From: Thermithiobacillus tepidarius DSM 3134
Lineage (GTDB): Bacteria; Pseudomonadota; Gammaproteobacteria; Acidithiobacillales; Thermithiobacillaceae
Assembly (NCBI RefSeq): GCF_000423825.1
Contig: NZ_AUIS01000010.1
Span: forward strand, 1-64,000
Reading direction: 5' to 3'
Length of the DNA: 64,000 nt
In this document: piece after piece, positions 36,750 through 42,601 of the stretch
Layout: each line of letters starts with the position of its first letter
Position numbering within the stretch: position 1 is the first letter of the stretch
Notes under the pieces: model-generated
What the model saw: only the letters and a program-made list of their open reading frames with translations
What the model was told of the DNA's origin: nothing
The model's database searches: none
Translations under genes and position numbers: made by a program

Positions 36750-37535
36750 TCAGGCAGCGCTTGCCTCCCCGCCGAAAACGTAGAGATCCATGGCCAGCGC
36801 GCCCTCGCTGATGCCGGCGTAGCGGCGCTGCACCCCGCCCCGCTCCCAGGCCGCACCCAAGGCAACGAAGAGCGGCAGCAGGTGCTCCTCGGTGGGATGG
36901 GCGCGCGCGGCGCCGGGGGCTTGGCGCCGATAGTCGAGCAGGCTGTCCAGATCGCGGGCCAGCAGGCGTTCGTGCATCCAGCCCTGGAAGGCGCGCACGT
37001 AGTCCGGTGCCGCCGCTTGGCCGGCGCCCCAGACGATGTCGGCCAAGTTGTGGGTGAGGCTGCCGGAGGCGAGGAGCAGGATGCCCGCCTCCCCCAGCCC
37101 GGCCAGGGCGCGGCCCAGCTCGAAGTGATGGCGCGGCCCCTGCTGCGGCTGCAAAGCCAGGGGCAGCACCGGAATGTCCGCCGCCGGATACATGGCCCGC
37201 AGCGGCACCCAGGCGCCGTGGTCCAGGCCGCGGGCCGGGTCCAGCTCGGCCCCAAGGCGTGCGGCCAGCCGTGCCGCCAACTCCGGATCGCCGGGCGGCG
37301 CGTAGCGCAGCGCGTGGAGAGCGGCCGGAAAGCCGCCGAAGTCGTGGATGGCGGCGGGCGCGTCGGCGGCGCCCAGGGCAGGGCGCGGGTGCAGCCAGTG
37401 GGCGGAAGCCACCAGGATGGCCCGCGGCCGCGGCAGCGCCGCCGCCAAGTCCCGCCAAGCGCCCACCGCCGGCCCGCCCTGCAGGGCCAGGGTGGGCGCG
37501 CCGTGGGACAGGAAGACGGCGGGCAGTCTGGCCAT
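36750..37535 (-). CDS. LigB-type extradiol dioxygenase (YgiD/DODA family)
   Basis: The 261-residue protein has the family's N-terminal FLSHGAPTLAL, ASAHWLHPRPALG and GLDHGAWVPLRAMYP. GSLTHNLADI and PTEEHLLPLFVALG follow. The conserved His residues in SHG, SAHW and DHG are those expected to bind the non-haem metal. E. coli YgiD has 4,5-DOPA extradiol dioxygenase activity; the natural substrate is unknown. It is last in the MarR-headed operon, three bases after a YceI gene, which hints at an aromatic or quinone substrate; that is inference. Confidence 0.88.
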   Translation of the reverse strand: MARLPAVFLSHGAPTLALQGGPAVGAWRDLAAALPRPRAILVASAHWLHPRPALGAADAPAAIHDFGGFPAALHALRYAPPGDPELAARLAARLGAELDPARGLDHGAWVPLRAMYPAADIPVLPLALQPQQGPRHHFELGRALAGLGEAGILLLASGSLTHNLADIVWGAGQAAAPDYVRAFQGWMHERLLARDLDSLLDYRRQAPGAARAHPTEEHLLPLFVALGAAWERGGVQRRYAGISEGALAMDLYVFGGEASAA

Positions 37536-37538
37536 GGC

Positions 37539-38102
37539 TCAGCTCTTGATGGCCTCGACGGGGATGGTGATCTTCACCTCATCGCCCAGAAGAGGCAGAT
37601 ACTTGGTCATGCCGAAGTCGGAGCGCTTGATGGTGGTGGTCGCGGTGGCGCCGCACACCTCCTTCTTCAGCATGGGATGCGGCGCGCACTGGAAGGATTC
37701 CACCGCGAGGCTCACGGGGCGGGTCGCGCCGAGCAGGGTGAGCTTGCCGTCGACGCCAGTGAGCCGATCGCCCTGGAAGATCAGCTTGTCGGACTTGAAG
37801 GTGATGGTCGGATACTTGGCGACGTTGAAGAAATCCTCAGTGCGCAGGTGCTTTTCCAGCTCCTCCAGGCCGGTGTCGACGGAGGCGGCGTCGATGGTGA
37901 TGTCCACGCTGCCGGTCTTGGCCGTCTTGTCCAGCACGATGGTGCCACTGGTCTTGTCGAAGCGGCCCTGCTGCATGGAGTAGCCGAAGTGACTGATGGC
38001 GAAGCTGGGGAAGGTGTGGCGCGGGTCCACCGTGTAGGTGTCGGCGGCGAAGGCCGGCGCAGCGATGGCGGCGAAGGCCAGGGCAACGAGGGTTTTCTTC
38101 AT
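37539..38102 (-). CDS. YceI-family periplasmic lipid/isoprenoid-binding protein
   Basis: The 187-residue product has a signal peptide ending in APAFA and a lipocalin-like YceI domain: YTVDPRHTFPSFAISHFGYS, GSVDITIDAASVDTGLEELEKHL, FFNVAKYPTITFKSDK and LTLLGATRPVSLAV. YceI proteins bind polyprenyl chains such as those of ubiquinone precursors. The C-terminal CAPHPMLKKEVCGA stretch has two cysteines that could form a disulfide. It follows another YceI gene by 28 bases. Confidence 0.93.
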   Translation of the reverse strand: MKKTLVALAFAAIAAPAFAADTYTVDPRHTFPSFAISHFGYSMQQGRFDKTSGTIVLDKTAKTGSVDITIDAASVDTGLEELEKHLRTEDFFNVAKYPTITFKSDKLIFQGDRLTGVDGKLTLLGATRPVSLAVESFQCAPHPMLKKEVCGATATTTIKRSDFGMTKYLPLLGDEVKITIPVEAIKS

Positions 38103-38130
38103 GCGATGCTCCTTTGCAGGGGATGAGAGT

Positions 38131-38685
38131 TCAGGGCACGAGGTAGAGCTTGAAGCGAACCTGCACGTCATCGGCCACGGTGCCGGTATCGGCCCAGTCG
38201 CCCTCGCCGATGCGGAACTGCAGGCGCTTGAGGGTGAAGCCGCCGTCGAACCAGGCGCCGTTGCCGGCCGGGCGCACGGTGAAGGGGGCGACGATGTCGC
38301 GGCTGACGCCCTTGATGCTGAGCTTGCCGACGGCCTGATAGCGGCCGGGGCCGAGCCGCTGCACCCGCTCGGACACGAAGGTGGCCTTGGGGAAGGCGGC
38401 CGTGTTGAACCAGGACTTGCCCTGGGCCTCGCTGTCGGCCTCCGCCAATCCGGTATCGATGCTGGCCAGGTCCACCTCGATGCGGGCGCGGCCGGCTTCC
38501 GGCCGGGCCGGATCCACCGCCACCTGGGCGGCGAAGCGCTTGAACTGCCCATCCACCGGCACGCCCATCTGTTGGCTGGTGAAGGTGATCCGGCTCTGGC
38601 CGGGCACGAGCCGGGTCAGCTCGGCGGCTTCGGCGGCAGGCAGCAGCGCCAGCAGCGCGGCCGCCAACAAAGCTTTCTTCGACAT
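38131..38685 (-). CDS. Second YceI-like periplasmic protein
   Basis: This 184-residue protein has a signal peptide (KKALLAAALLALLPAAEA) and a divergent YceI domain: QSRITFTSQQMGVPVDGQF, RIEVDLASIDTG, WFNTAAFPKATFVS, VGKLSIKGVSRDIVAPF and FRIGEGDWADTG. That RIGEGDWADT pattern belongs to the YceI subgroup that often pairs with cytochrome b561, which is the gene immediately upstream. I chose the ATG at 38685; an ATG five codons earlier (38700) is possible. Confidence 0.9.
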   Translation of the reverse strand: MSKKALLAAALLALLPAAEAAELTRLVPGQSRITFTSQQMGVPVDGQFKRFAAQVAVDPARPEAGRARIEVDLASIDTGLAEADSEAQGKSWFNTAAFPKATFVSERVQRLGPGRYQAVGKLSIKGVSRDIVAPFTVRPAGNGAWFDGGFTLKRLQFRIGEGDWADTGTVADDVQVRFKLYLVP

Positions 38686-38711
38686 TCCACGATTCTCCAT
38701 GACGCGCGGCA

Positions 38712-39239
38712 TTAGGAGCCCCGGAAGCGCATGCGCGCCAGCAGTCCGTCCCGGTCGACGAATTGGTGCTTGGCTGCGGCGGCCACGTGGAACAGCACCA
38801 GCGTCAGCAGGCCGTAGTTGAGGATTTCATGCAGCTCCTCCAGCGCTTCGCCCAAGGCTTTGTCCTTGCCCACTAGGTCGGGCAGCGGCAGCACGCCGAG
38901 CCACACCGTCTGGACACCCTTGGCCGAGCTCATCAGCCAGCCGGACAGGGGCACCGCCAGGATGAGCAGGTACAGCAGTCCATGCACCGCGCTGGCGGCA
39001 CGCCGCTGCCACGGCGCCATGCCGGCCGGATAGGGCGGCGCGGCATGGGTGGCGCGCCAGGCCAGCCGGGCGAGCAAGAGCAGCAACACGGTGATCCCCA
39101 GCCACTTGTGATAGCTGTAGAGCTGCAGCCGCGTCGGCGACAGGGGCAGCTCGTGCATGTACAGGCCCAAGGGAAAGGCAATGAAGATCAACAGCGCGAT
39201 CGTCCAGTGCAGGACGACGGCGGTCCGGGTATAAGTCAC
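38712..39239 (-). CDS. Cytochrome b561
   Basis: The 175-residue inner-membrane protein has four hydrophobic helices. Histidines in VVLHWTIALLIF, LYSYHKWLG, VHGLLYLLI and LFHVAAAAKHQF fit haem b ligands of the YodB/CybB family. Such proteins move electrons between the quinone pool and periplasmic partners. Translation starts at GTG 39239, overlapping the MarR stop as GTGA and preceded by AGGAGG. It sits between the marR-like gene and the two yceI genes. Confidence 0.9.
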   Translation of the reverse strand: MTYTRTAVVLHWTIALLIFIAFPLGLYMHELPLSPTRLQLYSYHKWLGITVLLLLLARLAWRATHAAPPYPAGMAPWQRRAASAVHGLLYLLILAVPLSGWLMSSAKGVQTVWLGVLPLPDLVGKDKALGEALEELHEILNYGLLTLVLFHVAAAAKHQFVDRDGLLARMRFRGS

Positions 39240-39685
39240 TCGTTTTCCTCCTGGCTGGCTGCGGCGAAGGCCGCCCGCAGACGGGCGAGCCCGGCCTCGA
39301 GTTCGGCGAGCTCCGCGGGCGACAGGCGGCCGAAGGCGCGCCTGCCGTGGGCGACCACGCCGGGAAAGATCCGCTGGAAGAGCGCGTCGCCGGCTGGCGT
39401 GAGCTCCACCCGGGTGCTGCGGCGGTCCGTCGCCGACGCCACCCGGCGGGTCAGGCCCTTCTCCTCCAGACGGTCGATCACGCCGGTCAACGTCCCCTTG
39501 GTGATCAGGGTCTGCTCCCCCAGCTCCTTGAAGCTCATGCCCGGCGTATTGCCGAGCGTGGCGATCACATCGAACTGGGGCGGCGTGAGCCCGAGCCTGC
39601 GGATGTAGGCCGCCGAATAGGCTTCGAAGGCCTGATAGCAGCGGGCGAGTTCGCGCAGGGTCTTGAGATAGGGTTCGCTGGGCAT
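39236..39685 (-). CDS. MarR-family transcriptional regulator
   Basis: The 149-residue winged-helix protein contains GLTPPQFDVIATLGNTPG and FKELGEQTLITKGTLTGVIDRLEEKGL (recognition helix region), then the wing RRVASATDRRSTRVELTPAG. It heads the operon with cytochrome b561, two YceI genes and the LigB-type dioxygenase. Two palindromic sites overlap its promoter, so autoregulation is likely. I chose the ATG at 39685 over a TTG 12 bases upstream because the TTG lies next to an operator and has no ribosome-binding site. The ligand is unknown; aromatic compounds are usual for the family. Confidence 0.88.
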   Translation of the reverse strand: MPSEPYLKTLRELARCYQAFEAYSAAYIRRLGLTPPQFDVIATLGNTPGMSFKELGEQTLITKGTLTGVIDRLEEKGLTRRVASATDRRSTRVELTPAGDALFQRIFPGVVAHGRRAFGRLSPAELAELEAGLARLRAAFAAASQEENE

Positions 39686-39700
39686 GGTGCCGATCAAATC

Positions 39701-39743
39701 GTTCTAACAAGAACAATATTAGTCCTAATTAGAACATTGTCAA
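39701..39743 (-). promoter_or_regulatory. MarR operon promoter with two palindromic operators
   Basis: On the minus strand the -35 is TTGACA (39738-39743) and the -10 is AATATT (39715-39720), 17 bases apart. Operator 1 (39722-39735) is GTTCTAATTAGGAC, one mismatch from a perfect palindrome, inside the spacer. Operator 2 (39701-39714) is GTTCTTGTTAGAAC, with perfect 5-base arms, and covers the expected start of transcription. The centres are 21 bases apart, two helical turns. Repressor binding would block RNA polymerase. Confidence 0.75.
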
Positions 39744-39929
39744 GCGTGCGCGAGCTTGGCCGACCAGACCAAGAGGATCAATGCCGGTGGATGTGCCGAG
39801 GCCGGCACATCCGGGCGACGAGGCTAGCCATGCCGCCATCAACGACCGCGCGCAAGGCGTAGGAAACCCATTCGTTGAGACGTGCCCCAGGCAAGAGCGC
39901 CCGCCAGCGGCCAGCTCGGCCCCGCACCT

Positions 39930-40956
39930 TCAGGCGAAAGTCGTCGCGGCAAAATTCCTGCGGGCGGGTGCGTCCATATTGCGGCGCTTTGTGGAGACCA
40001 GGAAGAGATTGTCGGCCAGCGTGGTCAGCAAACCCGTGCGGCGATTGACTGATTTGAGGAATTCGGAGGCTGAGACGAGCGCCCGGTGCCGCCGCAGGAA
40101 CAAATGCTTGTCGGTCACCTGGCCCTGGGTAAAGAAGCTCCCGACGAGGATTTGCGAGGGACCGATCAGCTTGTCGAAGGTCGCCTGCAGTTCCGCCGGC
40201 GTCCAGTAGCGGGTCTCGAAGCCACGCGCCTCCCGAAATCTGCGCCGGGCCTGGACAAAGAGGCTGCGCAGGCCGTAGGAATTCAGCATCTGGATCAGGC
40301 TTTGGCCGCCGTCGCTCAGCACCCGCTGGATTTCGGGCAGGGAGGCTTTCACATTTTCCTTGCTGAAATGCTGAAAGACGCTGTAGGAATAGACGAATTC
40401 GAAGCTGCCTTCGGCGAAGGGCAGATAGCGTGAATCCGCCACGACGTAAAGCGCCTCCCTGCCCAGTTGCCGGGCGACGCGGCGGGCGGTGAGCATGGCT
40501 TCCAGGGACGGATCGATGCCGACCGGCCTGTAGCCCTGCCGACTGGCGGCAATGCACCAGTGCCCCCCAGTTGCAGCCGATATCGAGGAAGCGCTTGTCG
40601 TCGCCCGGCGGAATGTCCAGTTCGGGAATGGGGTATTCCTTGAGCCTGCCAACCAGCGGCCGATACAGATTGCTGTTGGTGTCCGCGACCGCCTGCTGCA
40701 CATAGGGATCGACCTCCTCCGATCCACGGCTGCCCAAGCGCCCCGGCGGAGGCTCATCCTCCAGCAAGGCGAAGGTTTCGTTGGCATGCCGCGCGTGAGT
40801 ATGGTCGATGTCCTTGGGCAGCATGACCGGCACCCCGCCTATGACCGGGTAGCGATGTCCATGCGGGCAGCTCAGGGCGTCGGCATCGAAAGCCAAGGAT
40901 TGCCTGTCCAGCGGACAAGCGAGGTGGTCCAGCAGCCAGGGATCCAGCACGTACAT
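39930..40956 (-). pseudogene. Class I SAM methyltransferase with N-terminal zinc-ribbon, frameshifted
   Basis: The start at 40956 (GGGGAGGT upstream) encodes a Trm112-like domain: LDHLACPLDRQSL, LSCPHGHRYPVIGGVPVML. A class I methyltransferase domain follows, with motif I beginning FLDIGCNWG. At a run of six C (40563-40568; G on the coding strand) the frame changes. The rest (GYRPVGIDPSLEAML, VVADSRYLPFAEGSFEFVYS, HFSKENVKASLPEIQRVLSDGG) continues in another frame to the stop at 39930. The total length is 1027 bases, one more than a multiple of three. A one-base insertion, real or a sequencing error, explains this; the corrected protein has 341 residues. The substrate is unknown. Confidence 0.8.
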
Positions 40957-41147
40957 CTTCACCTCCCCGCGGCTTCGCCGCGTGGCGCGGAACGCGAAAA
41001 TGAACGTCGCATTATCCGGACGATACCCCGCCCGGCAATCCGGCCATTGGCAGGATGCAGGGGCCCGAAGCCGTGGCAGCCAGGCACCACTGCCAGATCC
41101 TGCGGAGTCCACATGCAGATTTTCCAGGCAGGCTTGGGCAATGCGGA

Positions 41148-42020
41148 TCAGGCCGTCGCCAGAAAGCCCAGCAGCAGTTCGTTGACCTGGGCCGTCGCGT
41201 CGCGCATCACCCAGTGGCCGGCATCGGGCACGAAGACCAGGCGCCCCGGCTCGCAGAGCTGGATGCTGGCCTGCGCCAGGCTCGGCGCCAGCGCCGGGTC
41301 TTTCACGCCCCAGATCAGCAGCGTGGGCACGCTGATCGGACCCGGGTCCGGCAGCAGCGGCCGCCGCCAGACCAGCGCCCGATACCAGTTCAGCATGGCG
41401 GTCAGCGCCCCTGGCTGGCGCCAGGCCGCGCGGTACTGCTCGAGCTCGGCATCGGCAAAGGCGTCCGGGCGGCTGCTGCCGCGCAGGGCCGTCACCAGGA
41501 TGTGGAAATCGCGCAGGCGCAGCACCCGCTCCGGCAGCCAGGGCAGGGCAAAAAAGGGCACGTAAGCGCTGCGCAGGAGCTGGCCCGGACGGGTGTGGAG
41601 CTCGCGGCGCATGGCCGCCGGATGCGGGGCGTTGAGCACGACCAGGCGCTCCAGCACTTCCGGATGGCGGGCCGCCAGCCACCAGGCGACCACCCCGCCC
41701 CAGTCGTGGCCGATCAGGGTCACGCGCGGGCGCCCGCTGAGGCGGATCAGGGCGAGGACATCAGCCGCCAGCTCCTCCAGCCGGTAGGCGGCGAGGCCAT
41801 GGGGCTTGTCGCTGCTGTTGTAGCCGCGCTGGTCCGGCGCCCAGACCCGCCAGCCCGCCGCCGCCAATGCCTCGACCTGCCGGAGCCAGCCCAGCCAAAG
41901 GTCAGGGAAGCCGTGCAGGAGCAGCACCAGGGGCCCGTCCGGCTCGCCCGCCGCCGCCACGTGCAGCGTCACGCCGTTGCCGGGCAGCCGCAGATGCTCC
42001 AGCGCCGTGCCCAACGCCAT
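41148..42020 (-). CDS. Alpha/beta hydrolase, epoxide-hydrolase-like
   Basis: The 290-residue protein has LLHGFPDLWLGW (oxyanion HGXP), DQRGYNSSDKP, nucleophile elbow IGHDWGGVVAWW with Asp as nucleophile, and a C-terminal DAGHWVMRDA with the catalytic His. An Asp nucleophile is usual for epoxide hydrolases and haloalkane dehalogenases. A cap region covers about residues 140-215. The start overlaps the stop of the flavoprotein gene upstream (TGATG), so the two are translationally coupled. Confidence 0.87.
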   Translation of the reverse strand: MALGTALEHLRLPGNGVTLHVAAAGEPDGPLVLLLHGFPDLWLGWLRQVEALAAAGWRVWAPDQRGYNSSDKPHGLAAYRLEELAADVLALIRLSGRPRVTLIGHDWGGVVAWWLAARHPEVLERLVVLNAPHPAAMRRELHTRPGQLLRSAYVPFFALPWLPERVLRLRDFHILVTALRGSSRPDAFADAELEQYRAAWRQPGALTAMLNWYRALVWRRPLLPDPGPISVPTLLIWGVKDPALAPSLAQASIQLCEPGRLVFVPDAGHWVMRDATAQVNELLLGFLATA

Positions 42021-42601
42021 CAGCGCCCTGCCCGCCCCAGCTCGCGCATCAGGGCGAGCCACTGCTCGCGGCGGGCGGCCTTGCCCTCCACCATGCCGAA
42101 GAGATTCACCATGACCGGCTTGATGCCGACAAAGGCCAGGATGTTGCGCTCCAGGCTCTTCAGGCTGTGGGCGTGGAAGTACCAGCGATAGACGAAGGCG
42201 GGCATGCCCATGGTGACGACGATGCGCGCCGAGCGGCCGGTGAGCAGCTTCTTGCCCATGCTCCCGGGCGCCGGCTGGCTGAAGGCGAAGCCGGGCCGCA
42301 TGACCTGTTCGAGAAAGCCCTTGAGCAGTGCCGGCATGCCGCCGAGCCAGAGGGGATAAAAGATCACCAGATGCTCGGCCCAGGCAATCGCTTCCTGGGC
42401 CTGGCGGATGCCGTCCGGCGCTTCCCGGTCCCAGTCGGCCTTGCTGCGCAGCAGCGGAAAGTCGAGCTCGGCCACCGCGATCCGCCGTATGCTGTGCCCG
42501 GTGGCTTCGGCCGCCTGGGCATAGGCGGCCGCCAGCGCGTGGTCCAGATGGGTGGCCTGCGGATCGGGATGACCCTGGATGATGGTAATGCGCCTGGCCA
42601 T
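42020..42601 (-). CDS. NAD(P)H dehydrogenase (quinone)/flavodoxin-like protein
   Basis: The 193-residue protein starts with the flavodoxin-like IIQGHPDPQATHLDHAL. It has YPLWLGGMPALLKGFLEQVM, the NQO1/KefF-type FMN/FAD-binding signature, and YRWYFHAHSLKSLERNIL. It probably reduces quinones by two electrons with NAD(P)H. It is coupled to the hydrolase gene downstream. Upstream at 42602-42759 there is only a REP-like element. Confidence 0.87.
   Translation of the reverse strand: MARRITIIQGHPDPQATHLDHALAAAYAQAAEATGHSIRRIAVAELDFPLLRSKADWDREAPDGIRQAQEAIAWAEHLVIFYPLWLGGMPALLKGFLEQVMRPGFAFSQPAPGSMGKKLLTGRSARIVVTMGMPAFVYRWYFHAHSLKSLERNILAFVGIKPVMVNLFGMVEGKAARREQWLALMRELGRAGR

Follow-up and report, generated by a model that had tools for sequence, protein, structure and literature searches.

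A candidate MarR operator pair at the head of an lcoA-bcnA-bcnB-like operon in Thermithiobacillus tepidarius

In a 64-kb stretch of contig 8 (NZ_AUIS01000010.1) of the 2.96-Mb genome of Thermithiobacillus tepidarius DSM 3134, referred to here as the window, five tightly packed minus-strand genes and their promoter (within 39743-36750) encode a MarR-family regulator, a cytochrome b561, two YceI lipocalins and a LigB-type dioxygenase. We consider it rather probable that these genes form a self-repressed MarR operon with a role in shielding the cell envelope against oxidised lipids and quinones. The lcoA-bcnA-bcnB protective core, to which the three central genes correspond, is known already; the literature searched seems to contain no account of the MarR regulator, the mirrored pair of operators or the link with genes for quinone disposal. 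With a repressor of its own and a clearly delimited operator, the lcoA-bcnA-bcnB system could be asked directly which signal it senses, and the defence against lipid peroxidation would be tied to quinone stress.

Promoter, operators and gene layout

The promoter, the two operators and the genes of the operon are as follows:

39738..39743, minus strand: -35 element TTGACA (promoter scan and motif scoring)
39715..39720, minus strand: -10 element AATATT, with a 17-base spacer to the -35 element
39721-39716, minus strand: alternative -10 element TAATAT, with a 16-base spacer, overlapping the AATATT reading
39719..39738, minus strand: predicted operator 1, 20-mer AATGTTCTAATTAGGACTAA, in the promoter spacer (21.8 bits, held-out motif)
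39735-39722, minus strand: core of operator 1, GTTCTAATTAGGAC, a palindrome inside the 17-base spacer
39698..39717, minus strand: predicted operator 2, 20-mer ATTGTTCTTGTTAGAACGAT, over the expected transcription start (18.9 bits, held-out motif)
39714-39701, minus strand: core of operator 2, GTTCTTGTTAGAAC, a palindrome directly past the -10 element
39236..39685, minus strand: MarR-family repressor, ATG start (longer reading from TTG 39697), PF12802/PF01047
38712..39239, minus strand: cytochrome b561, LcoA-like, GTG start, PF01292 (1.4e-33)
38131..38685, minus strand: YceI lipocalin 1, BcnA-like, start at 38685, 38700 or 38712, PF04264
37539..38102, minus strand: YceI lipocalin 2, BcnB-like, PF04264
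36750..37535, minus strand: LigB-type, 4,5-DOPA-extradiol-dioxygenase-like enzyme, PF02900 (2.8e-27)

A 20-base operator motif, built from the sites in 86 regions upstream of MarR orthologues (at least 44% identity) with the window held out, recovered both operators, which were the top two sites of the whole window at 21.8 and 18.9 bits (the next best reached 0.9); when the 180-base promoter region was dinucleotide-shuffled 1000 times, no shuffle attained 18.9 bits. The original prediction of two palindromes 21 bases apart, one in the spacer and one over the start of a TTGACA-17-AATATT promoter, was thereby borne out: the spacing of the two cores is 21 bp, and the promoter itself was recovered by promoter scan and motif scoring. 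Between 36300 and 39900 the scan returned only the two overlapping readings listed above (shuffles: mean 0.2, standard deviation 0.4), and no minus-strand terminator was found in the same interval.

When the whole genome was searched with GTTCTAATTAGAAC and up to two mismatches, the two operators were the sole matches; three mismatches added five further places, compared with 25 places at up to three mismatches for the backwards control. Because there is no second strong match, and the three-mismatch places fall below the control, the repressor is probably dedicated to its own operon.

The MarR stop codon overlaps the GTG start of the b561 gene by four bases, and gaps of 28 and three bases separate YceI 1 from YceI 2 and YceI 2 from LigB, respectively; one transcript running from marR to ligB is therefore likely. 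MarR more probably starts at ATG 39685 than at TTG 39697, because most orthologues begin at approximately residue 8 of the TTG reading. The gene content first proposed, from MarR through b561 and the YceI pair to the LigB-type dioxygenase, agrees with the Pfam matches throughout.

The operator among orthologous loci

Sites of at least 7 bits were present in 56 of 87 regions (window included) compared with 7 of 435 shuffled regions, and two or more such sites in 24 of the 87 compared with 1 of 435. In the orthologue locus set (76 loci, L033-L108, 835 kb), where a strong site was one of at least 15 bits, there were 67 strong sites, for which the next gene was marR in 59 cases, lcoA (the b561 gene) in five and neither in three. 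The five lcoA-facing sites belong to the loci with the order lcoA-bcnA-bcnB-marR (L057, L059, L072, L100 and L106), in which marR has no site of its own; L102, the start of which is cut off, is a possible sixth. Of the three remaining sites, the second operator of L052 precedes a DoxX-LigB-transferase series in the same gene run, that of L090 lies within a predicted frame, and that of L034 (2603-2622, 19.8 bits) is found by a purB-like lyase gene, more than 2 kb upstream of the MarR gene.

A search for the paired pattern that did not depend on any protein, made in 369 genomes of the class, matched two of them, the window's own and G064, while the backwards control matched none of the 369; with the spacing relaxed to 21 or 22 bp no genome was added to these two (backwards control 4/369). 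The G064 pair lies inside TTGACA-17-TATTAT, directly before the gene for a MarR protein 50% identical to the window MarR over 131 residues, with DoxX and then a quercetinase-type pirin downstream; no b561 or YceI match was found in the 9 kb taken from this genome.

The geometry of the pair is conserved as well. In the 24 regions with at least two sites of 7 bits the spacing is 21 or 22 bp in 19, 10 bp in four and 15 bp in one, and a TTGACA-like box (at least 5/6 matches) adjoins site 1 in 17 of the 19 paired regions (window included), compared with 291 of 4600 random placements. The outer halves of sites 1 and 2 are alike (on average at 7.5 of 8 positions) and close to GTTCTAA, and the inner halves are degenerate, often GTNCG. 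By the 10-base motif score the outer half exceeds the inner in 15 of the 19 pairs, the four exceptions being the window, L033, L042 and L086; by the 7-base core only, in a set made up of one manually chosen pair per clade plus G064, it does so in 8 of 9 (p 0.04), the window fitting and L042 failing. In most cases, then, the operator pair seems to make up a unit of roughly 41 bp with mirror symmetry, which the window shows less clearly than most and which we read as the seat of two MarR dimers in one symmetric assembly; if true, it would be a compact example of a single promoter bound by two MarR dimers. The symmetry may instead reflect promoter needs, which could shape the inner halves where they flank the -10 element, and an inverted duplication is another possible origin of the pair.

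Whether both sites of a pair count is a separate matter. In favour of the reading that only one operator matters and that the second palindrome is a redundant copy, just one site reaches 15 bits or more in 36 regions (31 before marR, five before lcoA), and single and paired sites are of the same mean strength (23.3 and 23.0 bits, p 0.46), figures on which we also rejected the idea that single operators are the stronger class. We nevertheless regard redundancy as very unlikely, since 19 of the 24 multi-site regions keep the 21 or 22 bp spacing (the other five having 10 or 15 bp), pairs so spaced are scattered over several separate parts of a MarR tree in which the forks are often unresolved, and the G064 pair was located without using MarR.

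The recovery by a held-out motif, the position of the sites at operon heads, the conserved promoter geometry and the G064 pair together support, by comparison, the original prediction that MarR may autoregulate one operon through two phased operators, and the conserved operator looks like genuine regulatory DNA. The anatomy and conservation of the sites suggest that one MarR dimer on each operator, in the spacer and at the start, would block RNA polymerase and thereby shut the operon of which marR is part.

Core genes, dioxygenase and candidate signal

The b561 gene lies directly upstream of the two YceI genes on the same strand, and its product aligns over residues 3-172 to the b561 structure 5oc0. 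The best PDB matches of YceI 1 and YceI 2 are 5IXH (6.8e-38) and 5IXG (9.1e-48), each far above other YceI structures, and these are the structures of BcnA and BcnB, respectively (PMC9113575), so that the first lipocalin is BcnA-like and the second BcnB-like. Both YceI N-termini resemble signal peptides by eye, and the two proteins are the only YceI matches in the genome. E. coli YceI and P. aeruginosa PA0423, which are treated as BcnA orthologues in PMC9113575, match window YceI 2 better than YceI 1 (approximately 100 versus 40–48 bits). Among the 76 orthologous loci, marR-lcoA-bcnA-bcnB occurs in 23 and lcoA-bcnA-bcnB-marR in five, and the order b561-YceI-YceI is also given in PMC5350466.

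In Burkholderia cenocepacia, according to PMC9113575, lcoA-bcnA-bcnB serves in defence against lipid peroxyl radicals, lcoA and bcnA are induced by antibiotics and paraquat, mutants in either gene show raised membrane lipid peroxidation, and the authors propose an electron path to quinone in which LcoA re-reduces the quinone bound to BcnA. By homology, the LcoA-like b561 of the window would pass electrons to a quinone carried by the periplasmic BcnA- and BcnB-like proteins and so quench lipid peroxyl radicals.

The last gene product of the operon matched the LigB domain (PF02900) at 95.9 bits (gathering threshold 26.3) and PDB 8in2 at 1.6e-49 over nearly its full length, with the motifs SHG, AHW, DHGAW and HPxxEH kept and no visible signal peptide. 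As a protein related to the 4,5-DOPA extradiol dioxygenases (DODA), it may cleave a catechol that arises from, or accompanies, quinone stress. Other loci also bring the orthologous MarR together with such enzymes: in L047, L049, L051 and L052 (cyanobacteria and Thiogranum) a LigB/DODA gene and one for a long glutathione transferase are both found no more than about 5 kb from it. The transferase was assigned to its family by Pfam in L047 and L052 and by clustering only in L051; compared with solved structures, those of L052 and L049 match YqjG of E. coli at 1e-99 and 6e-106, respectively, as well as a chain that bears the name glutathionyl hydroquinone reductase. An NDH-2-type oxidoreductase was found in L047, a related oxidoreductase and DoxX in L052, and a pirin in L071. 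All three of the families YqjG, pirin and DoxX have activity towards quinones or polyphenols. The theme of defence against a quinone or catechol, put forward in the original prediction, is thus upheld indirectly, by the DODA, DoxX, NDH-2-like oxidoreductase, pirin or YqjG-type transferase genes near orthologous MarR in some loci; it fares less well with the three core genes, the published role of lcoA-bcnA-bcnB being to lower membrane lipid peroxidation (PMC9113575).

Different company was seen in further loci. Orthologous MarR stands near a cytochrome c' in L038, L041, L062 and L083 (by Pfam in L038, L041 and L083, by clustering only in L062), L041 having another b561 as well. In the Nitrospirota loci L101, L103, L104 and L105, MarR, a short-chain dehydrogenase, a DsbA-like protein and YceI are encoded in a row, with a methyltransferase in two of them (Pfam for proteins of L105 and L101, clustering for the rest).

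The model of the window MarR (mean predicted local distance difference test score, pLDDT, 92.3) has the winged-helix MarR domain and the helical ends, and gave Z scores of 15 to 17 to the 50 entries listed, mostly named MarR-type regulators. Its best NCBIfam match is HpaR, the OhrR model scoring equally and both remaining below cut-off. The protein has a single cysteine, in helix 1 (Cys16 from the ATG, residue 20 in TTG numbering). When the orthologues were aligned with one another, 36 of the 87 rows showed a cysteine at this helix-1 position, the other 51 having Ala, Thr, Ser or Gly in 50 and a gap in one; the conserved reactive N-terminal cysteine that marks OhrR proteins thus has no family-wide counterpart here. 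Because only 36 of the rows have it, oxidation of this cysteine is unlikely as a common signal, and we rejected a family-wide thiol sensor.

The window MarR might still sense lipid hydroperoxides through cysteine oxidation in the manner of OhrR, in which case the operon would answer lipid peroxidation directly and quinones would be incidental. Such a scheme would suit a core that acts against lipid peroxyl radicals (PMC9113575), a single helix-1 cysteine that is common to many rows with the full lcoA operon, and the presence of OhrR among the fold matches (1z91, Z 15.3). We judge it unlikely, as the rows without cysteine include loci with the same operon and operator (L043, L068 and L074) and HpaR does no worse than OhrR among the NCBIfam models, neither of them reaching its cut-off. 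On the reading that we prefer, a quinone-like or oxidised aromatic ligand, and not cysteine oxidation, would release MarR from its operators.

A broader proposal, which we advance tentatively as possible, is that one MarR lineage, with members in Pseudomonadota, Cyanobacteriota and Nitrospirota, senses quinone stress and joins the quenching of lipid peroxyl radicals (lcoA-bcnAB) to quinone and catechol disposal (DODA, hydroquinone reductase, pirin, DoxX), often through a mirror-symmetric operator pair 21–22 bp apart, with near-invariant GTTCTAA outer halves and degenerate inner halves, that would seat two dimers cooperatively across the promoter.

Several observations weigh against a quinone-responsive, self-repressed operon of this kind. 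No site of at least 15 bits was found in 28 of the 76 loci, which include seven of the ten cyanobacterial loci and ten proteobacterial bins (L061, L063, L065, L067, L070, L073, L077, L098, L099 and L108), and the more distant orthologues therefore seem to use another motif or none. Aromatic- and quinone-binding MarR structures tie with many others among the fold matches and give no indication of a ligand. In B. cenocepacia, deletion of bcnB had no peroxidation phenotype in the account given by PMC9113575. The window LigB scored 191.9 bits with NF007914, below the cut-off of 233 bits for the DODA equivalog, and the four glutathione transferases reach no NCBIfam model. None of the 28 other full b561-YceI-YceI loci showed LigB, although three of them (L033, which stands closest to the window in the MarR tree, L036 and L042) end too soon after the second YceI gene for it to be visible; the operon is therefore not defined by the dioxygenase. 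Finally, the neighbours in other loci (cytochrome c', DsbA-like and methyltransferase genes) fit no single ligand.

The place of LigB inside the window operon would accord with a catabolic role, in which MarR senses an aromatic acid or catechol nutrient and LigB is the working enzyme, as would HpaR as the best NCBIfam match, below cut-off, and the phenolic-acid- and catechol-bound structures among the fold matches. A catabolic operon is quite unlikely in our estimation, as there is no catabolic gene among the examined neighbours of LigB in the window, LigB was not seen in the 28 other full operons, and a b561 and periplasmic lipocalins are ill-suited to catabolism.

As to its origin, a betaproteobacterium-like donor is the probable source of the operon, tree support being weak. 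Identity to the window MarR is 55–57% in six genomes of the same order, 64% over 55 residues for a fragment in a seventh, and up to 69% for the metagenome rows L033 and L034. In the 57 genomes searched as relatives (that of the window included, E 1e-15), matches of the BcnA-type YceI do not exceed 38% identity except in the window's own genome.

Two cytochrome c genes follow the operon (36510-34825, minus strand); one is diheme, the other has a SoxA/TsdA-like domain, and they hint at the oxidation of sulfur compounds. They were rejected as members of the operon, being 239 bases from LigB and having no tblastn match at E 1e-6 in the orthologue loci searched. Upstream, the gene for an S-adenosylmethionine (SAM) methyltransferase is seemingly split over two frames (39778-41682 and 39930-40787, both minus strand), with the N-terminal part in one, by eye, and the methyltransferase domain in the other, pointing to a frameshift or an assembly error. 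A Flavodoxin_2/KefF-like protein of the quinone-oxidoreductase type (42020-42601, minus strand) is encoded about 2.3 kb upstream and has no operator site.

Comparison with known systems

The window LigB resembles the YgiD-type 4,5-DOPA extradiol dioxygenases in its nearly full-length match and its retained motifs, and differs from them in falling under the NF007914 cut-off. Aromatic-responsive MarR proteins of the HpaR, BpsR, MftR and PecS types are among the best sequence and fold matches of the window MarR, although it reaches no NCBIfam equivalog cut-off.

MhqR of Staphylococcus aureus is a quinone-sensing MarR that represses the operon containing its own gene (mhqRED), with a quinone-binding pocket formed by F11, F39, E43 and H111 (PMC12893000). 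The window repressor is likewise encoded within its own operon and shares the fold (9qdr, Z 16.4; 9smz, Z 16.2), whereas the identity in the fold alignment is 23–24%, the target genes are other ones and many MarR proteins tie in Z; the likeness is only a lead for quinone sensing.

No description of this MarR, of its operator or of a dedicated lcoA-bcnA-bcnB regulator was found in the open-licence literature, judged by titles, the beginnings of abstracts and parts of PMC9113575 and PMC5350466, and no paper in the literature searched combined YceI, MarR and cytochrome b561. The main texts of PMC9113575 and PMC5350466 were searched by term and yielded no MarR regulator, the lone match to 'marr' being an author's name. 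With lcoA-bcnA-bcnB of B. cenocepacia the window operon shares its gene order, its first lipocalin being closest to 5IXH and its second to 5IXG; unlike that system, it is led by marR and ended by a LigB/DODA gene.

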